This document shows, piece after piece, positions 4,741 through 14,414 of a stretch of 35,508 nucleotides of DNA. The DNA is from Desulfobacteraceae bacterium (lineage in GTDB: Bacteria > Desulfobacterota > Desulfobacteria > Desulfobacterales > Desulfosalsimonadaceae), in contig QZKW01000062.1 of the NCBI GenBank assembly GCA_003599885.1, positions 1 to 35,508 on the forward strand. Direction: 5' to 3'. The position numbers and the translations under genes were made by a program. The notes beneath the pieces are model-generated. The model saw only the letters and a list, made by a program, of their open reading frames with translations, was not told the DNA's origin and searched no databases. The number at the start of each line of letters is the position of its first letter. The stretch's first letter is position 1.

Positions 4741-5505
4741 CTATTTTGACCCCTGCATGGGCGAAGCCGGAGCTGTTCCGTTGTCAGGAGACGCCAATCC
4801 AGCCGGTTTGATATCTCCGCTGACCCTGATGGTGACCGGATTGTTTTCAGTGTTGTCGGTCAGGATGTTGATTTGACCAAAATACCGGCCTGCAGATGTT
4901 TTGGTGTTTTCTATCGTGAATTCATAGGCTTTTTCCCCGTCGATTTCGATTTCCTTCATTGAATAACGGAAATCCGCCCCGTGTAAAGTACTGATGTTCA
5001 TTATGGTAAAGGGTTCCTTTGCGTCCGGGGCCACCGTGACAACCCGGCTGATTTTTTCGCCGACAGTGCCCCTTAAAATTACTCGTGACGGGGTGATAGA
5101 TGCAAATTTTCTGACTTCACCCGTCAGGTTCAGTTGAATCTTTGCATGATCTGGATCGCTGGTTTCAACCGTGATAACTTTTTTCGCTTGACCGCTGAAG
5201 CCTTGTGTCGAAAATTTAACCGTAATTTTTCCCTCCGAACCCGGAGAGATCAGTCCATCAAATGCGACTGTTGTACACCCTCAGGTGGTTTTGACGGCTT
5301 TGATCTCAAGATTGGCGTCGCCGGTATTTTTGATGATAAAATCATGAATGACGTCTTTCCCCTCATAAGCGAAGCCGAAATCATAGGAATTGATTTCAAG
5401 TACAGCATTTGGTTTGCCCTCACTGGCCTGGGCAGGTGTTATGAAGCCGAAAAAAAAGACTGCAACAATGAGCTGGAATAAACAACATATTGCGCATTTA
5501 GACAT
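4741..5505 (-). CDS. DUF1573 periplasmic protein A, candidate selenoprotein (UGA at codon 75)
   Basis: A 254-residue exported protein if the UGA at 5283-5281 is decoded. AAGGAGG lies 5 nt before ATG, giving MSKCAICC..., with a signal peptide ending near AQA-SEGK (residues ~1-27). DUF1573 follows: DFGFAYEGKDVIHDF, KNTGDANLEIKAVKTT, then UGA, then GCTTVAFDGLISPG. The family normally reads ...(T/S)CGCT..., so the UGA replaces the first motif Cys and would give Sec-Gly-Cys. The frame stays open for the remaining 179 codons with coherent Ig-like strands (TVETSDP, LTGEV, TPSRVILRGTVGE). It is about half identical to protein B (7617-8372), which has UGA at the same codon. Standard callers would split it into 4741-5034 and 5281-5550. 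The alternative, an ordinary nonsense mutation, is disfavoured by the paralogue. Confidence 0.85.
5231..5283 (-). promoter_or_regulatory. Candidate bacterial SECIS element of DUF1573-A
   Basis: Directly after the UGA (5283-5281) the mRNA can form CAGUC (5270-5266) paired with GACUG (5255-5251), with an apical region GCAUUUGAUG beginning 16 nt after the UGA. A second hairpin, CUCUCCG (5248-5242) with CGGAGGG (5237-5231), encloses the loop GGUU. From the UGA onward, 66 nt differ at only 3 positions from the paralogue, while flanks differ at about one base in three or four. Position and loop G fit known bSECIS rules. The fold was done by eye. Confidence 0.6.
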
Positions 5506-5564
5506 GGGCACCTCCTTGTGTGATAAATATATAGAATTATAGCAATTCATTCATTGAATGACAG

Positions 5565-7052
5565 CTAATTGCGGTAATACTTTCTAACATCGTAATTGAT
5601 ATCCGCACTTATTATGTCGATGGGATTGAAATTATCGGTTAAAATAATTCCGTTTCCATTAAATTTGGCTTCATCATTTTTAAATTTGGCTTCATCTTGT
5701 GCTGACAGGCTAAGTGGCGAATTTGACGCGAAAAAAACCGCGTTTCCGGATGTTGGCGTGGTATGGGCGTGGAATGCCCGCACATGTTCAAACACAGACT
5801 CAAGGGTCGCCTGAATGCTTTCAAACTGTCCGCCGTCGACCGTGCCCATTGTATTCATGGCTATGATTCCGCCTGGTGCAAGCTTGGTAACTGCTTCTGA
5901 AAAAAAATTATTAGAGTATAAATGATACGGAATAGAGTCAATGTTTGCTGCGTCCACAACGATAAAATCGTATTGGCGATCAATCGTTTTAATAAAATTT
6001 CGGCCATCAGCGATAAAAACCCTTTCTTCATTTGTCAGGCTTCCAAAATAGTCGCGGGCTACCTTGGGAATGACCGGGTCGATGTCGACCACATCAAACA
6101 TGATCCCCGATTCCGCCAGTAATTGGGGGATCAGTCCCCCTCCCAGGCCGATACATAGTCCCGTCCGGCTATTGGGCCTGAATAACGGCAGAAGGGAAAA
6201 TTTTCTGACATATTCGCATTGAATCGGCTCTATGTCAGTTCTGAGGCTGATGTGTGAGTTCGTGTTTCCGTCAATTAAAAGAGATCTTTCTCCATATCTT
6301 TCCACAACTTCAACAAGGCCGTAAAGACTTTGTGATGAGAAAATTAAACCGTCTTTTTTTTCAGTTGTCAATTTTGCAGATGCAGGAACTATCAAGGCAA
6401 TCATAAGAATCGCTACAGCGCCATATTTTTTTTCAAAAACAATCCAGCCCAGCCCTGAAAACATCAACAGAAAGCCTGCACAACTGAGAAAAATTTCCTT
6501 GTTCCCGATAGCCGGAATTAAAAAGAAACCTGTACCGAGCGTCCCGGCAAGGCTGCCGACAGTTGAGATTGCATAAAGTTTTCCAGATGTTGATCCGATA
6601 GTTTCAACAAGCGTTGCCCGGAGGCGAATGATAAGCGGCGGTATCATTCCCAACATTATCAAAGAAGGCGAGAAGAGAACCATCGCACTGCATAATCCCC
6701 CGCCAATACTGCCAAACAGCATATAGCATTCCGTCATGATCTTACCCGAAATAAAGGGTACCGGTATCATGACAAGACCAATGGAAAGAAACAGAAAATA
6801 TAGAGTGCTGAGAACCGGTTTCTTGTCAGCGATAATCCCGCCTATCCAATAACCGATTGCCAGTGACGCCAAGGTGATGGAAATCAGGGCTGACCAGACA
6901 TAAATGCCGGATCCGAAAATGGGATTAATTATCCGTGTGCCGACCAGTTCGATGAGCATAACAGCCGCGCCGGAGATAAATATCCCGGATGCGAGATATG
7001 TTTTTTGCGGCATTTCCAATAGAAACTCTCTTTTTTTCGGTTGTTTTTTCAC
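5565..7052 (-). CDS. Membrane-anchored spermidine-synthase-like protein
   Basis: A 495-residue protein with a hydrophobic N-terminal half of about eight membrane segments (from TYLASGIFISGAAVMLIELVG to AVAILMIALIVPA). A C-terminal SpeE-like Rossmann domain follows. Seen there: the S-adenosyl-binding loop LCIGLGGGLIPQ, the acidic strand end VVDIDP, FIADGRNF, and IDSIPYHLYSNNFF, which matches the synthase motif. Such fusions are common in Proteobacteria, but their substrate is usually unknown. I chose the GTG at 7052, with AAAAAGGA nine bases upstream; the frame extends to 7370 inside the preceding gene, and a later ATG at 7013 is possible. It sits between the NTF2-like lipoprotein and DUF1573-A on the same strand, so it is probably co-transcribed. 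Confidence 0.8.
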   Translation of the reverse strand: MKKQPKKREFLLEMPQKTYLASGIFISGAAVMLIELVGTRIINPIFGSGIYVWSALISITLASLAIGYWIGGIIADKKPVLSTLYFLFLSIGLVMIPVPFISGKIMTECYMLFGSIGGGLCSAMVLFSPSLIMLGMIPPLIIRLRATLVETIGSTSGKLYAISTVGSLAGTLGTGFFLIPAIGNKEIFLSCAGFLLMFSGLGWIVFEKKYGAVAILMIALIVPASAKLTTEKKDGLIFSSQSLYGLVEVVERYGERSLLIDGNTNSHISLRTDIEPIQCEYVRKFSLLPLFRPNSRTGLCIGLGGGLIPQLLAESGIMFDVVDIDPVIPKVARDYFGSLTNEERVFIADGRNFIKTIDRQYDFIVVDAANIDSIPYHLYSNNFFSEAVTKLAPGGIIAMNTMGTVDGGQFESIQATLESVFEHVRAFHAHTTPTSGNAVFFASNSPLSLSAQDEAKFKNDEAKFNGNGIILTDNFNPIDIISADINYDVRKYYRN

Positions 7053-7080
7053 AAGAAAAATTCCTTTTTCCAGCTGGTAA

Positions 7081-7108
7081 TTCACCTGCGGGATGTCCCG
7101 CAGGTGAA
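7081..7108. other. Intercistronic hairpin, 13-bp perfect stem
   Basis: TTCACCTGCGGGA (7081-7093) and its exact complement (7096-7108) are separated by 2 nt. The hairpin begins just after the lipoprotein stop codon and ends about 28 nt before the GTG of the spermidine-synthase-like gene. No U-run follows on either strand, so an mRNA-stability or processing element is likelier than a terminator. Confidence 0.6.
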
Positions 7109-7113
7109 ATTGA

Positions 7114-7548
7114 TCATTTGCCTGTTTTAACTTCGGTGCGCAGCGGTACCTGCAGTCGCCATTCTCCGCCTTCCATAATCCAATGCTGGGTTTCGGGGGT
7201 TCCCTTGAAATCAAACCCTTTTGTCTGAATATCGTTTTTGATCTTGACCGTGGCTTCTTTTCCGGAGGGGGAAATTTCAATTTTCTCGATAGTATAGGTT
7301 TTAAAAAGGATACTTTCGATTTTTTTTGAAAAAACCTCTTTCGATTCTCTCTTTTGAAAGGATTCGTCAAAATAGGTATAGACAGTTGCCCAATCTTTAT
7401 TGATTTTGGCCTGCATCATTCCCTGGACCCTTTCCTTTAAGGCTTCCTCCGGTGCTTTATTTTTTAAAGACGCGCATGCGGTGGATGCCAGCGAAATAAT
7501 GGCGATGAACAGGACGAAAAAAATCTTACGGCTTGAATTTGTTTTCAT
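7114..7548 (-). CDS. Small exported NTF2-like lipoprotein
   Basis: A 144-residue protein with a positively charged, hydrophobic N-terminus (MKTNSSRKIFFVLFIAIISL) ending at STAC, a loose lipobox, so it is probably lipidated at Cys. The rest reads as an NTF2-like fold: helices (EEALKERVQGMMQAKINKDWATVYTYFDESF) then strands (TIEKIEISPSGKEATVKI, TQHWIMEGGEWRLQV). The start at 7548 has AAGGA upstream; an earlier in-frame ATG at 7569 has none. The gene lies between DUF1573-B and the spermidine-synthase-like gene on the same strand. Its role is unknown; by location it may be an envelope accessory of the efflux or DUF1573 proteins. Confidence 0.75.
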   Translation of the reverse strand: MKTNSSRKIFFVLFIAIISLASTACASLKNKAPEEALKERVQGMMQAKINKDWATVYTYFDESFQKRESKEVFSKKIESILFKTYTIEKIEISPSGKEATVKIKNDIQTKGFDFKGTPETQHWIMEGGEWRLQVPLRTEVKTGK

Positions 7549-7616
7549 GGCAAGTTGATTCCTTTTCATAGTGTATCTGTTTAATAAAATTGATTGATTC
7601 CATAAAAATTTTTTTA

Positions 7617-8372
7617 TTATTGTTTCATAACGTTAGGCGTTATTCCATACCCTTGGGTCCCCGGTCCGGAAGGCTTGATGTTCCCGCTGATGATGATGGA
7701 GATAGGATTATTTCCGGATTTGTCTGTCAGGATGTTGATCTGATCCAGATAGCGGCCTGGAGACGTTCGGGTGTTTTCAATGGTGAATTCATAGGCATTT
7801 TTCCCGTCGATTTCGATGTCCTTCATTGAATACCGGAAATCCACACCATGTAAAACATTGATGCTGATTATTTTAAACGGATTCTCGGCATCCGGAACCA
7901 CCGTGACGACCTGGCTGATCCTTTCACCGACAGTTCCCTTCAAAACAGCTTTTGACGGGGTGATGGATGCAAAATTTTTAACTTCCCCCGTCAGTTTCAG
8001 ATTAAATTTTGAATTGGCAGGATCGCTGGTTTCAACATTGACGACTTTTTCAATTTGACCGATGAGGCCTTTGGTCGAGAGAATAACCGTAATTTTCCCC
8101 TCCGAATCCGGAGAGATCAGTCCATCAAACGCGACTGTTGTACACCCTCAGTGGGTTTTGACGGTTTTAATCTCAAGCGCCGCATCACCGGAGTTTTTAA
8201 CGATAAAATCATGGGTGACGTCTTCTCCCTCATAAGCAAAACCAAAATTATGGGAATCGACTTCAATTGAAGCAACGGGTTTGCCATCGCCTGCCTGGGC
8301 GGGTATGATAATGCCAAAAAAACAGACAGGGACAACGACCAGGAACAACCACAATATTGCGCGATCAGACAT
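7617..8372 (-). CDS. DUF1573 periplasmic protein B, candidate selenoprotein (UGA at codon 75)
   Basis: A 251-residue exported protein if the UGA at 8150-8148 is decoded. AAGGAGG precedes ATG by 5 nt; the signal peptide runs MSDRAILWLFLVVVPVCFFG... to AQA-GDGK. DUF1573 landmarks: NFGFAYEGEDVTHDF, KNSGDAALEIKTVKTH, then UGA, then GCTTVAFDGLISPD. As in paralogue A, the stop replaces the first Cys of the CGCT motif at codon 75. After it the frame is open for 176 codons and aligns with A throughout (STKGLIGQ, VETSDP, LTGEV, TPSKAVLKGTVGERIS, LHGVDFRYSMKDIEIDG). It starts about 30 bp after the RND pump stop codon, on the same strand, so it is probably translationally part of the efflux operon. Tails differ: A is Pro/Ser/Ala-rich, B ends near TPNVMKQ. 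Confidence 0.85.
8098..8150 (-). promoter_or_regulatory. Candidate bacterial SECIS element of DUF1573-B
   Basis: After the UGA (8150-8148) the same structures as in gene A are preserved: CAGUC (8137-8133) with GACUG (8122-8118), and CUCUCCG (8115-8109) with CGGAGGG (8104-8098). The differences from A in this span are GCA to GCG, which turns an inner A-U pair into G-U, and one base in the second loop (GGUU to GAUU). No stem pair is broken. The fold was done by eye. Confidence 0.6.
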
Positions 8373-8403: not shown

Positions 8404-11400
8404 TTATCCGTTGTTTGTCAGGCGCGTTTCCGACCGGGTTTCAAACCATTCATAAATTGTCGGCAGAACGATCAGGGTCAGCAGGGTTGACGTGATCAGC
8501 CCCCCCATGACAACCACTGCCAGCGGTTTCTGAATGTCCGCGCCGGAACCTGTTGCGTAAAGCATGGGCAGATGGCCGATGAAACTGGTGAGCGCTGTCA
8601 TCAGAAGCGGCCGGAACCTCAGTTTGCAACCGGTGCGAACCGTGTCCAACACACTTTTTCCCTCTTCCCTGAGCTGGCGGAAAAAGGCGACCAGAACCAC
8701 GCCGTTTTGAACGGCAATACCCAGCAGAACGATAAAGGCCACTGCCGCCGATACTGATAACGGCATGGCGAAGATTTTGATGGCCAGAATACCGCCTACC
8801 AATGCAAAGGGCAGGTTCAGCACAACCAGAAGGGAATCCCTGATGGAACCGAGCGCCAGATACAGAAGCAGCATGATAATCAGGATGGCGATGGGCACAA
8901 CAATGGAGAGCTGCCGCATGGCCCGCTGCTGATTTTCAAACTGGCCGCCGTATTCGATAAAATAGCCGGACGGCAATTCCTTTTCAATGCCGGCAAGCGT
9001 CTGCTGGGCTTCAGCGACAAAGCCGCCCAGATCTCTGCCCCGGATATTGACTTCCGCAGCCACGCGCCGCATGCTCTTTTCCCGGGTGATCTGGGCCGGG
9101 CCTTCCACCAGTGAAATGGCGGCTATCCGGTCCAGCGGCACCTGCTCACCGGACGCGCCGGAAAGCAGCAGCCGTTTAATGGCGGGAATGTCCGAACGGT
9201 CGGATTCCGGGAAACGCACAACGGTTGCAATGCGCATCTGCCCGTCAACCACGCGGGTCGCCTCTTTTCCGGCAATGGCGGTTTCCACCAGCTCGTTGGC
9301 GTCGGCGATGTTGATGCCGTAACGCGCCATTTCCTGACGGTTGAAGGCCACTTCAATCTGTTCCATGCCAGACACCTGTTCCACTTTCACATCTTCCGCG
9401 CCCCTGATCCCGGACAGTTTGCCCGCTATCCGGTCCGCATAACTTTTAAGCTTTTCCAGGTCATTGCCGTAGACTTTAACGGCAAGATCACTTTTCACGC
9501 CGGAAATCAATTCATTCACCCGAAGCGCAATGGGCTGTGAAAACGATAGCCGAATGCCGGGAATGGCTGACAAATCTTTCTGGATGTCATTCACCAGATC
9601 TTTCTTGTCCCGGCCGGTAGTCCATTCCCTGCCCGGTTTGAGCATGATAAAGACATCGGTCTGTTCCGGACCCATGGGATCTTCGGATATTTCCGCGCGT
9701 CCGGTTTTGCAAACCACTGCCGACACCTCGGGAAAGGACGCGAGAATCCGTTTTTCCATAAATGTTGAGACGTCTTTTGAGCCTTCAAGAGATGCATTGG
9801 GCAGACGCACCACGTTGATGGCGATGGCCCCTTCATCAAGGGACGGCATGAATTCGGTGCCGATGTCGGTGGCGGCGAAACCGGCGGCAATAAGACATGC
9901 TGCGGATAGGCCGAGAGTCAAGCCTTTTCTTTTAAGTGCCGCGTTTAAGAAATTCAGATAGCCTTCGTGAAACCAGCGGACAAACCGGAATTCTTTTTCG
10001 GCGGACTGTTTTAAGAATATTTCAGAAAGTACGGGAACAATCGTTAATGCGACAACAAGAGACGTGAGTATGGCGAAAATCATGGTCAGGGTCAGCGGCA
10101 GGAACATTTTGCCTTCGATTCCCTGGAGGGAAAAGAGCGGCGCCATCACAATCACGATGATGATGATGGAGAAAGCAACCGGTTTGGCCACTTCCCAGAC
10201 TGCCTGGGCCGTGATCTGCCGCCGCATCAGCGGGTCCCGGTGCTCGGAAAAATGCCTTCGGATATTTTCCACTATCACAATGGAGGCATCCACTACCATG
10301 CCGACGGAAAAAGCGAGTCCGCCCAGGCTCATCAGGTTGGAAGTGACGCCAAACCATCCCATGATGATAAACGTGGCAAGAAAGGTGATGGGGAGAGTGG
10401 CGACCACGATCAGAGCTGTCCGAAGTTCGGCAACAAACAGAAACAGCACCAGAATCACGAAAACTCCGCCTTCCAGCAGGGCGTCCATAACGGTTTTAAT
10501 ACAGGCCTGAATCAGGGATGTGCGGTCATAGAACACATTGATGTGCGCTTCTTTGGGAAGGCTGTTCTGTATTTTGGGTATGGCCGCCTTAACTTTGGAA
10601 ACCACCTCTTTTGAATTTTCACCCCGAAGCATGATGACCATGCCGGCCACCGCCTCTCCCTTGGCGTCGCGCGTGACCGCGCCCTGGCGGGGCTGGGGTC
10701 CGACAACGACATCCGCCACATCTTTTATATAGACCGGAGAACCGTCTTTGGCTTTCAGCACAATATGTTTGATATCGTCAATGCCGGTTAAGAGCCCGAG
10801 CCCCCGGATATAGGTCTGCTCCCAGCCGCGCACGATAACACCGCCGGCGGCGTTGGCGTTGTTTTTCTCCACGGCTTCCACAACTTCGCGAAGGGACAGG
10901 TCATATTGAAGAAGCGCATCCGGACGTACAATAATATGATATTGTTTGACAAATCCACCGAAACTGTTCACTTCATTAACGCCGGGGATCGGTTTCAGTT
11001 GGGGAGCCACCACAAAATCCTGAAGCGTTCGCAGCTCCATGGCGGAAAGCGTATCGCTTTCAAGGGTATACTGGAATATTTCTCCAAGACCTGTACTTGT
11101 GGGGCCGAGTTCAGGCTCGGCTGACGGCGGCAGGCTTTCCTTTGCCGACTGAATGCGTTCAAACACCTGCTGGCGGGCGAAATAAATATCCGTATGATCG
11201 TCAAAAACCACAATGACCTGAGAAAGTCCGGATTTGGACAATGACCGCACCTGGTTGACTTTAGGAATACCGCCCATCTGCTGTTCAATGGGGTAGGTGA
11301 TCTGTTGTTCCACATCCACCGCCGAAAGCCCCGGCGCTTCAGTCAATACCATGACCTGCACGTTGCTCACATCGGGAAATGCGTCAATGGGAAGCTGAAT

Positions 11401-11490
11401 CCACGCAATGACTCCGGCGGCAATCAACACGCCGGTCAGTGCCAGGATAAGAAATCGCGAACGAAGGATCAGTTCAATTATTTTATGCAT
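8404..11490 (-). CDS. HME-family RND heavy-metal efflux pump (CzcA/CusA type)
   Basis: The inner-membrane proton-driven pump of a tripartite heavy-metal exporter. It is 1028 residues with two RND repeats: N-terminal helix, porter domain, six-helix bundle (~335-530), second porter domain, second bundle (~865-1010). TM4 reads SVGMVVDASIVIVEN, keeping Asp401 and the Glu but with Ser where CzcA has the first Asp, which is closer to CusA. The porter domain has RVNELISGVKSDLAVKVYG, as in CzcA, and I see no Met at the three copper-binding positions of CusA. Zn/Co/Cd/Ni-type cations are therefore at least as likely as Cu/Ag. It starts 9 bp after the adaptor gene with AGGGGG before ATG. DUF1573-B follows. 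Confidence 0.93.
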   Translation of the reverse strand: MHKIIELILRSRFLILALTGVLIAAGVIAWIQLPIDAFPDVSNVQVMVLTEAPGLSAVDVEQQITYPIEQQMGGIPKVNQVRSLSKSGLSQVIVVFDDHTDIYFARQQVFERIQSAKESLPPSAEPELGPTSTGLGEIFQYTLESDTLSAMELRTLQDFVVAPQLKPIPGVNEVNSFGGFVKQYHIIVRPDALLQYDLSLREVVEAVEKNNANAAGGVIVRGWEQTYIRGLGLLTGIDDIKHIVLKAKDGSPVYIKDVADVVVGPQPRQGAVTRDAKGEAVAGMVIMLRGENSKEVVSKVKAAIPKIQNSLPKEAHINVFYDRTSLIQACIKTVMDALLEGGVFVILVLFLFVAELRTALIVVATLPITFLATFIIMGWFGVTSNLMSLGGLAFSVGMVVDASIVIVENIRRHFSEHRDPLMRRQITAQAVWEVAKPVAFSIIIIVIVMAPLFSLQGIEGKMFLPLTLTMIFAILTSLVVALTIVPVLSEIFLKQSAEKEFRFVRWFHEGYLNFLNAALKRKGLTLGLSAACLIAAGFAATDIGTEFMPSLDEGAIAINVVRLPNASLEGSKDVSTFMEKRILASFPEVSAVVCKTGRAEISEDPMGPEQTDVFIMLKPGREWTTGRDKKDLVNDIQKDLSAIPGIRLSFSQPIALRVNELISGVKSDLAVKVYGNDLEKLKSYADRIAGKLSGIRGAEDVKVEQVSGMEQIEVAFNRQEMARYGINIADANELVETAIAGKEATRVVDGQMRIATVVRFPESDRSDIPAIKRLLLSGASGEQVPLDRIAAISLVEGPAQITREKSMRRVAAEVNIRGRDLGGFVAEAQQTLAGIEKELPSGYFIEYGGQFENQQRAMRQLSIVVPIAILIIMLLLYLALGSIRDSLLVVLNLPFALVGGILAIKIFAMPLSVSAAVAFIVLLGIAVQNGVVLVAFFRQLREEGKSVLDTVRTGCKLRFRPLLMTALTSFIGHLPMLYATGSGADIQKPLAVVVMGGLITSTLLTLIVLPTIYEWFETRSETRLTNNG

Positions 11491-11499
11491 GGCGGCCCC

Positions 11500-12942
11500 C
11501 TAATCAGCGCATCCTGCGCCCATTTTTCCGCGCAGTACATCGGATTTCAGCAGAAACGACCCGTCGGCAATGATTGTCTGACCGATGGCAAGCCCTTCTT
11601 TAATCTCGACAAATTCATTAAAGGGGGTGCCGGGGGTGACCGGGCGGCGTACCCAGTAATCGCCTTCCTTGTGAACAAAAACGAATGAGCGCCCGGCGTC
11701 CTCAAGTACCGAGATCTGCGGAACCGCAATCACATTGCCGGTGCCTTGAAACAGCACCCGGATATTGACGAACATGCCGGGCTTGAGCAGACCGTCTGTA
11801 TTGGCGACGCGGATACGCGCCTTAATCGTCCGTGTCTGGGCATTCATCTGCCCGGACACCACATCCAGCACACCCGGATATTTTTGACCATCAGTGCCTG
11901 TTGTCTCAATTTCACATGCGATATCAGCATGTTGTTTCTGCAGAAACGGCAATTCCGCCTCACGGATATTCGCCCACACCCACACTTCGGAAAGATCGGA
12001 GAGAAGAAGAAGTTCCTTTCCCGCCTCGATCCGTTCGCCCGCACTCACATATTTTTCAATCACTGTGCCGGTGATCGGGGCATGAACCGGCAGTATGCCG
12101 TTGATGGCGATTGCCGCTTGACCGGCCAGCAAACCGATATCCTGTTTTGAAAAACCCAGACGTTCCAGGCGGATACCCGCATTGATGAGCTCAATTTCAG
12201 CCTCGCCCAACCGGTTCTGCGCTTCCTGAACGTCCACTTCAGCAGAAATCTTTTTGGCAAAAAGGCTGGCTTCACGCTCTGCGGTTTTTTTTGCAAGCGT
12301 CAACGCGGCTGATTTTTTCATGTATTCGGCTTTTGCTTCCGCCACTGCATCGCTGTCGAGGGCCAAAAGAACTTCGCCTTCTGTAAAGTGTCCGGCGATA
12401 TCCGCGGATAGGCTTTTAATGGTTCCCTGAAGCGGACTTGAAACGCGAACGGTTTTTGTCTCGTTTAACCGCACTTCCCCGTTCAGGAGAAGGGGTTTTG
12501 AAAAATTCATGGGAACGGCTTGCGTCACACTGACGATGCCCGGTTTATCTTTACTTTGGATCACCGTATCGGAAAGTTTGACAACGCCGAGTTCATACCG
12601 GCATTCATCACAGGTGAAGTGAAGGATATCGTGTTCACAATGGGCTGCCCAGAGTTCATCCACTGGCCGATCCAGGTCCGACAGTCCTTCCCCGTCTCCA
12701 TGACCATGCCCGCCGCAGGAAGGCGCGGCATGGCTGTCATGATCATGGGTGTCTTCTTCACGGGCGGATTCTTCTTTTTCCTCTGCGGTGTACGCTTTGG
12801 TTTTTTCATCTTTGCAGGTCGAAGCACAGGTCGCCGCGTCCTTGGGTGAGTCGTTTGATTGTGCTGCGCGAGAATTAAATACCACCGTTATGATGACAAC
12901 ACATGCGATTGCCGTCAGGGTGATGAATGATTTTTTTTTCAT
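11500..12942 (-). CDS. RND periplasmic adaptor (CzcB/CusB type) with His- and Cys-rich N-terminus
   Basis: The membrane-fusion subunit linking pump and outer-membrane channel, 480 residues. It has an N-terminal signal/anchor (MKKKSFITLTAIACVVIITVVF) and then an acidic, metal-ligand-rich segment (HDHDSHAAPSCGGHGHG) with CASTCKD before it. A small motif C-E-H...C-D-E-C (residues ~112-122) looks like a zinc-type site found at the front of some heavy-metal adaptors. The lipoyl/barrel-sandwich part (LNGEVRLNETKTVRVSSPLQG ... VHAPITGTVIEKYVSAGERIEAGK) flanks an alpha-hairpin, followed by beta-barrel strands ending VIADGSFLLKSDVLRGK. AGGAGAGACC precedes the ATG. The His/Cys-rich front suggests metal capture in the periplasm. 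Confidence 0.92.
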   Translation of the reverse strand: MKKKSFITLTAIACVVIITVVFNSRAAQSNDSPKDAATCASTCKDEKTKAYTAEEKEESAREEDTHDHDSHAAPSCGGHGHGDGEGLSDLDRPVDELWAAHCEHDILHFTCDECRYELGVVKLSDTVIQSKDKPGIVSVTQAVPMNFSKPLLLNGEVRLNETKTVRVSSPLQGTIKSLSADIAGHFTEGEVLLALDSDAVAEAKAEYMKKSAALTLAKKTAEREASLFAKKISAEVDVQEAQNRLGEAEIELINAGIRLERLGFSKQDIGLLAGQAAIAINGILPVHAPITGTVIEKYVSAGERIEAGKELLLLSDLSEVWVWANIREAELPFLQKQHADIACEIETTGTDGQKYPGVLDVVSGQMNAQTRTIKARIRVANTDGLLKPGMFVNIRVLFQGTGNVIAVPQISVLEDAGRSFVFVHKEGDYWVRRPVTPGTPFNEFVEIKEGLAIGQTIIADGSFLLKSDVLRGKMGAGCAD

Positions 12943-13015
12943 GGTCTCTCCTGTTTTGGAATCTGGTATGATGATTTGAGATATATTTTTTTGTAATTAA
13001 ACATCCTGCCGGTCT

Positions 13016-14323
13016 TTATGGCAGCGTTTGTCCGATCAGACGTTCGATTGCTGTCCGCGCTTTGTGATAGTCCCCAAGAGCGAGAAGATGCTGTTGCTTG
13101 ACTTCAAAAAGAGTGCGCTGGGCCTCAAGAACATGGGGGTAGCTGAATTTGCCTTCACGATAGCCTTCAAGGGTGGATTGAAACGCCGATTCCGCAGCAT
13201 TGGCCACCACTTCTTTGAGGGCGGATGCGGACAACGCCGCAGCGGACAGATCCTGGTATGCCTGCCCGAGGGCCGCACGGGTATTTACATAAGCGGCCCG
13301 CTGCTCTTGCCTGGCTTTTGACAGATCGTGGAGGGCTTCCTGCTTTTCTCCCTGATTGCGGTTGAAAAGGGGAATCGGTACGGACAGACTCATGACAAAA
13401 GCAGTGTTTTCCGTCTCATTATAATACCGGGGGCCTGCGCCAATGGTGACATCTGGGATCGCTTGCGCATCACTGAGCGTCACGGCAGCGGATTTTGTTT
13501 CTATTTCGGTGGTCCAGCGGGCCACATCCGGATTTCCAATGATTTTATCCTCAAGTTCATCCAGAGGCGGTATGGGTGTGATAGCATCCATCTGTCCGGT
13601 CACGGCTTCAAACATCGGGGTTGTGCTTCCCCATGCGGCAACCAGCCTTTTACGGGCCGCTTCAAGAGAATGCCGGGTTTGTTCAAGTTCAATCCGGGCG
13701 GTCGTCAGGGAAACTTTGGCCTGAAGTTCCTCAACCGGAGGGACTTTGCCCGCTCTCACCCGTTCGGCCACCGTGGTGTAAGTTTCTTCAGAAAGCCTTG
13801 CCAGCTCACGGGAAATGGCCAGATGCTCCTGGGCGGCACAAACATCCCAGAAAGCCCCTGAGATTTCGTTAAATACGTCGAGACGCTTGCTTTCGTAATC
13901 CAGATGAGCCAGTTTCGTCTCCAAGTCAGCCACTTGCTTTCGTTTTAAGCGCTTGCCTGCTGTTTCGATAAGCTGATTCACCTGAACGGTGGTTTCCGCG
14001 CTTTTAAATCCGGACTGTTCATCTTCTCCGCCGAAGTTTTCTACGCTGGTTTCAACCTCCGGATTGGGAAACAGACCGGCCTGGAGAGCCCTTGCTTCCG
14101 AGGAACGGATTTCCAATGAAAAGGCGGCCAATTCGGGATTCTGAAGCAGTCCCAGAGACAGGGCTTTATTTAAAGACAACGGGCCGGTTGGGTTTTCTAT
14201 GGACGGATTGCCGGGTGCGGTTTGGGAATGCGGGTCCGCAAGGGCGGTATTTGCATAAGAAACGTCGCAGAAACCACTCAGCGACAACACGCAAAAGAGA
14301 AAAAACAAATATTTCAAATGCAT
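13016..14323 (-). CDS. Outer-membrane efflux channel (TolC/CzcC family)
   Basis: The outer-membrane factor of the tripartite exporter, 435 residues with a signal peptide (MHLKYLFFLFCVLSLSGFCDVSYA). Two TolC-type repeats are visible: LSLNKALSLGLLQNPELAAFSLEIRSSEA...LFPNPEVETSVENFGG for the first and IPPLDELEDKIIGNPDVARW...AIPDVTIGAGPRYYNETEN for the second. Long coiled-coil helices and the conserved VPIPLFNRNQGE strand are also present. I prefer the ATG at 14323, with AAAGGA eight bases upstream, over the ATG two codons earlier, which would be too close to it. It is the first gene of the three-gene exporter set (channel, adaptor, pump); the adaptor starts about 70 bp after its stop. Confidence 0.92.
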   Translation of the reverse strand: MHLKYLFFLFCVLSLSGFCDVSYANTALADPHSQTAPGNPSIENPTGPLSLNKALSLGLLQNPELAAFSLEIRSSEARALQAGLFPNPEVETSVENFGGEDEQSGFKSAETTVQVNQLIETAGKRLKRKQVADLETKLAHLDYESKRLDVFNEISGAFWDVCAAQEHLAISRELARLSEETYTTVAERVRAGKVPPVEELQAKVSLTTARIELEQTRHSLEAARKRLVAAWGSTTPMFEAVTGQMDAITPIPPLDELEDKIIGNPDVARWTTEIETKSAAVTLSDAQAIPDVTIGAGPRYYNETENTAFVMSLSVPIPLFNRNQGEKQEALHDLSKARQEQRAAYVNTRAALGQAYQDLSAAALSASALKEVVANAAESAFQSTLEGYREGKFSYPHVLEAQRTLFEVKQQHLLALGDYHKARTAIERLIGQTLP

Positions 14324-14414
14324 GGGCATTGTCCTTTATCATATGAGATATAAGCGTTCGGTTGAGTTGAAAAAACAAATAAATGAAGACCGGCGGCTGT
14401 GCAAAAATTTTCCT

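Follow-up and report, generated by a model that had tools for sequence, protein, structure and literature searches.

A tandem pair of DUF1573/OS_HP2 genes in a Desulfobacteraceae bacterium with in-frame UGA codons most likely read as selenocysteine

Selenium-containing members of the DUF1573 family have been in print since 2007–2008. OS_HP2 (pfam07610, motif UxC) is part of the 2008 GOS selenoproteome (PMC2398784), and DUF1573, with the motif UGC, is listed among selenoproteins in reviews of 2022 (PMC9312934) and 2026 (PMC13188914), both of which cite Zhang and Gladyshev 2007 for the family. The Sec-type family is curated by NCBI as NCBIfam NF041425. An earlier note on the DNA studied here hinted that DUF1573 is absent from the usual lists of bacterial selenoproteins; in view of these sources, that hint is wrong. 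The passages on the family in the three papers give no function for it. A second use of UGA is described for the Desulfobacterales, in which a tRNA-Cys with a UCA anticodon (selC*) and a dedicated factor (selB*) recode UGA to cysteine (PMC7609411, PMC11415595; Mukai et al. 2017, via the review PMC7609411). In that order, cysS* is reported downstream of selB*, and the tRNA is reported to carry A1:U72.

Our window covers positions 1 to 35,508 of contig QZKW01000062.1 (assembly GCA_003599885.1) of a Desulfobacteraceae bacterium. It contains two DUF1573 genes, copies A and B. Both pass the curated cut-off of the NF041425 OS_HP2 (seleno)protein profile (121.7 bits for copy A and 103.2 bits for copy B; cut-off, 100) and the gathering cut-off of the PF07610 DUF1573 profile (79.8 and 71.9 bits; cut-off, 26.1). 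They share the domain, the position of Sec, and the kind of organism with the described family and differ from it in nothing essential, so that they are a well-supported additional member and no new family. Particular to this case are the tandem arrangement, the presence of five UGA paralogues in the genome, and hairpins that are weaker in copies A and B than the family mean. The features of the locus are as follows.

4741..5505, minus strand: copy A, two-domain DUF1573/OS_HP2 protein, predicted exported; 254 residues with the UGA read through, stop TAG
5113..5391, minus strand: DUF1573 domain of copy A (PF07610)
5251..5270, minus strand: candidate SECIS hairpin of copy A, CAGUC-G-CAU-UUG-AUG-GACUG, +11 to +30 after the UGA
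5281..5283, minus strand: in-frame UGA, most likely read as selenocysteine; codon 75 of copy A, at the first Cys position of the CGC(T) motif
5425..5505, minus strand: residues 1-27 of copy A, a putative signal peptide (...PAQA/SEG) assigned by eye
5510..5517, minus strand: ribosome binding site AAGGAGGT of copy A
5565..7370, minus strand (that of the copies): membrane protein located between copies B and A, with a spermidine synthase-like domain (NF037959)
7114..7569, minus strand: small exported or lipoprotein-like open reading frame with no Pfam match, between copies B and A
7617..8372, minus strand: copy B, tandem paralogue of copy A, 251 residues, 65% identity to copy A
8118..8137, minus strand: candidate SECIS hairpin of copy B, at the position matching that of copy A
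8148..8150, minus strand: in-frame UGA of copy B, codon 75, the same codon number as in copy A
8404..14329, minus strand: RND efflux genes upstream of copies A and B, on the same strand
8404-11490, minus strand: RND pump
11500-12942, minus strand: membrane fusion protein, CusB/HlyD type
13016-14329, minus strand: outer membrane factor

The TGA at 5283-5281 is the sole internal stop of a 255-codon frame (5505-4741, minus strand). The ATG is preceded at 4 nt by AAGGAGGT, and the N-terminus, judged by eye, resembles a Sec signal peptide with the end AQA. The earlier note had described just such a gene, with a single UGA at codon 75, a good ribosome binding site, and a signal peptide, and these observations confirm it. 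Gly-Cys-Thr directly follows the TGA, which gives the motif U-G-C-T. The first in-frame ATG, GTG, or TTG past the TGA is codon 158, indicating that a separate downstream gene is implausible. Between copies A and B, dN/dS is 0.21/0.62 before the TGA and 0.17/0.52 after it, and constraint is likewise maintained past the TGA in comparison with two other loci (L197 and L198). Copies A and B group as sisters in a tree built from 101 domains, next to one copy from a genus-mate.

In the source genome (4.5 Mb, 90 contigs), five of the seven DUF1573 matches contain exactly one TGA. To this genome we add 59 from its genus, family, and order. DUF1573 matches are present in 53 of these 60 genomes, and the resulting table has 85 TGA-bearing rows, read by eye, of which 82 were fetched for analysis (G007:C446, G007:C177, and G027:C119 were left out). 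Nineteen copies without TGA were fetched as well, leaving out 20 such rows, counted by eye, with long frames or scores below the cut-off. The TGA occupies the first position of the motif in 82/82 fetched copies (80 UGC, one USC, and one UGL), which come from 47 genomes, with a maximum of five copies per genome. The 19 copies without TGA comprise ten with CGC, three with CAC, and six with neither, so that Cys-Gly/Ala-Cys stands at the motif column in 13 of them. UGA/Cys pairs among DUF1573 homologues, which the earlier note had proposed to look for, are thus present. Matches from named genomes (Desulfobacteraceae, Desulfococcaceae, other Desulfobacterales MAGs, and one Hydrogenedentota) have UGA at the motif in 17 of 18 cases, with CGC in the remaining one, from the Hydrogenedentota. 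Several of these records duplicate genomes of the 60-genome set, and the two sets are not independent. Two DUF1573 proteins (L210:721-2049 and L211:822-2150) are 443 residues long with the UGA at codon 76 and, judged by eye, have extra repeats of the C-terminal Ig-like domain.

The recurrence of one TGA in five of seven matches within the genome, and of its position in 82 of 82 copies, indicates that the in-frame TGA is not due to chance. It also bears on the view that copy A is a pseudogene, or contains a sequencing error or an ordinary premature stop, and yields a 74-residue product. The weak hairpins of copies A and B, each taken singly, would fit this view, but the TGA is repeated in the tandem copy and at the motif throughout the fetched set, and constraint persists downstream of it. 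We therefore reject this explanation and regard it as highly improbable.

The region after the UGA was compared with synonymous-codon shuffles (60 per copy). In the 82 UGA copies, the 42 nt 3' of the UGA fold with a mean z of -1.23, and z is below -1 in 60% of them. In the equivalent test on the Cys homologues, from which the six copies with neither motif were excluded, mean z is +0.05 (n=13), and z ranges from -0.46 to +0.27 at seven other sites in the UGA genes. Of 80 distinct UGA sequences, 63, 67, 63, and 64 have canonical pairs at 13-28, 14-27, 15-26, and 16-25, respectively, of the main register, against 2, 4, 6, and 6 of the 13 Cys copies (raw counts, uncorrected for kinship). The pairs alternate between T-A, C-G, and T-G among the UGA copies. 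At the level of the family, a SECIS stem-loop is present just after the UGA, with a strong signal. Copies A and B have a bulged hairpin at the family position. Taken singly, it is no better than dinucleotide shuffles (z of +0.51 and +0.93) and is not unusually stable against synonymous shuffles (z of +0.36 and +0.44), and we infer a candidate SECIS in these two copies from the family.

These data likewise address a genome-wide reassignment of UGA, or its suppression in a signal-free manner, for example as Trp. We found no support for either; UGA is the terminal stop of 27 of the 82 UGA-bearing genes, the homologous residue is Cys rather than Trp, and the fold signal is confined to the stretch after the UGA. 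On the use of UGA as a stop in these very genes, reassignment is rejected, and we consider the probability of either reading negligible.

The earlier note had named selA, selB, selC, and selD as genes to be confirmed, and all four are present in the source genome: SelA (609 bits), SelB (369 bits), SelD (365 bits), and a tRNA-Sec with a UCA anticodon and G73. The SelD gene (G000:C2:71353-72273; L054) has an in-frame TGA of its own, which suggests that SelD is probably a selenoprotein itself. In each of the 47 genomes from which UGA copies were fetched, one or more of SelA, SelB over the cut-off, and a strong tRNA-Sec are present. All three are found in 29 of the 47; in the other 18, one or two of them are missing from incomplete assemblies. 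SelB over the cut-off was not found in G006, the assembly of which is 97% complete.

In accordance, the reading of the copy A UGA as selenocysteine, which the earlier note had proposed, is strongly supported by the UGA/Cys pairs, the hairpin at the family level, and the SelA/SelB/SelD/tRNA-Sec set, with cysteine as a real alternative. SelA, SelB, SelD, and tRNA-Sec would insert selenocysteine at codon 75, and a stem-loop lying some 11-30 nt 3' of the UGA, observed for the family and presumed for copy A, would direct the decoding. We put the probability that copy A is an OS_HP2/DUF1573 selenoprotein, with its UGA read as Sec by the canonical set, predicted to be exported and most likely active in Sec-Cys redox chemistry, at roughly 0.88.

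The source genome has a second UGA-reading tRNA, directly before a divergent SelB (G000:C28:11517-13542; L059:11518-13554). The tRNA (C28:11517-11606) and the SelB gene (C28:11659-13542) adjoin each other on a contig other than that of copy A. The tRNA has a UCA anticodon, U73, an 8-bp acceptor stem, and G1:C72. Among the 60 genomes, ten have the second SelB, and the tRNA precedes it at all ten loci, each time with U73 and an 8-bp acceptor stem; the first pair is A1:U72 in seven and G1:C72 in three, including the source genome. In a SelB tree, a single branch with support 100 separates the ten second SelBs from 28 canonical ones (28 of 30 canonical loci; G018 and G039 were left out). Contamination is not supported as the origin of the second SelB, which is found in ten genomes with the tRNA adjoining each time, and a plain duplicate of the Sec set is rejected on the U73 of all ten tRNAs.

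The second pair appears to match the published selC*/selB* tRNA-Cys system. The UCA anticodon, U73, the 8-bp acceptor stem, and a dedicated SelB directly downstream are shared with what is described of that system. In contrast, the source locus has G1:C72 in place of A1:U72 and no adjacent cysS* (none was found beside the second SelB among the listed open reading frames of the locus), and switch I of its SelB is degenerate and lacks the usual sequence. Elsewhere, the genome encodes a CysK-CysRS fusion of 789 residues (G000:C58:19674-21128; L216:1492-3861), in which a part resembling cysteine synthase is joined to one resembling cysteinyl-tRNA synthetase, in addition to the canonical CysRS on contig C7. 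The neighbourhood of the second SelB (L059:602-11499) contains HdrA/FlpD-like redox genes, a Cys-type DUF1573, and a molybdopterin-domain protein, as well as a TonB receptor, rhodanese-like lipoproteins, and an IscA/HesB-type protein. A similar neighbourhood, again with a Cys-type DUF1573, is found in a second genome (G048; L183).

Because this second UGA-reading tRNA/SelB pair is present, insertion of cysteine is a real rival in the source genome: the UGA may be read as cysteine, always or at low selenium, by the U73 tRNA and the divergent SelB. The side-by-side position of the two genes is consistent with this reading, as are the Cys-type discriminator U73 in 10/10 second loci, against G73 in the canonical tRNA-Sec, the fully supported separation of the second SelBs from the canonical ones, and the recoding described for Desulfobacterales (PMC7609411, PMC11415595). 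However, ten genomes have the second SelB and 47 have UGA copies. Twenty genomes with UGA copies have SelA, SelB, and tRNA-Sec, and no second SelB was found in them; since the UGA is retained there, the canonical route suffices in those genomes. The degenerate switch I and the location of the CysK-CysRS fusion elsewhere, with no cysS* adjoining, also argue against the cysteine reading, and we consider it very unlikely.

Decoding as selenocysteine thus remains our preferred reading, and we take the product of copy A in this form. AlphaFold predicts two beta-sandwich domains (mean pLDDT, 87.1; pTM, 0.66; structure alignment A3 of 15 named loci and the two window copies, with L208, L210, and L211 left out). 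In the first domain, a loop links strand 66-73 to strand 78-82, and residues 75-77 fall within it. Foldseek matches include Ig-like domains of the HYDIN type and SPD-2, plus a Porphyromonas gingivalis protein. Foldseek and Pfam (PF22544) agree on a fold like that of Ig-like ASH/PapD-like domains (HYDIN, the SPD-2 domain of CEP192, P. gingivalis 2qsv), with TM-scores by query length of 0.21-0.53 among the matches listed; no chemistry is suggested by these listed matches. A sequence search of the PDB gave no solved relative, with chance matches only (E of 0.11 or more). The product would be an exported protein with two Ig-like (ASH/PapD-like) domains and Sec-Gly-Cys in the loop of the first.

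Past the signal peptide, copies A and B have no selenol or thiol groups other than Sec75 and Cys77, and in 68 of 78 full-length copies (four of the 82 UGA copies were left out) there is no Cys past residue 30 besides the motif. A Sec-Cys redox pair is therefore our first guess, and the likeliest activity would be reversible formation of a Sec-Cys selenenylsulfide in the periplasm, with binding of a soft metal as second choice. In the metal-binding case, the copies would be part of the upstream RND metal-efflux operon, with a soft metal ion held at the Sec-Gly-Cys site. Copies A and B do lie downstream of the RND pump, the CusB/HlyD-type adaptor, and the outer membrane factor, on the same strand. 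However, the RND-pump family does not recur in the gene clusters shared by at least two genomes near the 82 UGA copies, and the most frequent neighbours, a HAD hydrolase at 37 loci and a DNA polymerase I-like protein at 29, give no pointer to metals. The case for a metal-efflux partnership is weak, and we regard a metal role as rather unlikely.

The HAD hydrolase gene follows DUF1573 in 37 of the 82 loci, a gene judged by eye to be a probable DNA polymerase I is near 29, and MauE is near three. In one group of UGA paralogues (L071:5657-6274 and 36 other loci), the order DUF1573, HAD hydrolase is fixed, with a median gap of 7 nt, and the DNA polymerase I-like gene comes next in 29 genomes.

Copy A is, on the preferred reading, one selenoprotein gene that automatic annotation would split in two. 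The presence of two UGA-reading SelB/tRNA pairs in one cell raises the question of whether Sec, Cys, or both are inserted. We think it unlikely, to a degree between the metal role and the pure cysteine reading, that UGA is programmed to be read in two ways in these genes here, as Sec through SelB and tRNA-Sec and as Cys through the second SelB and the U73 tRNA. If it were, the supply of selenium would decide whether one and the same exported protein is produced with Sec or with Cys. In both the source genome and G048, the distance between the second SelB and the Cys-type DUF1573 gene is a few kilobases, and this would fit a selenium-independent back-up set. At genome scale, with UGA copies in 47 of 60 genomes, the Sec form is the usual form of DUF1573 in this order.
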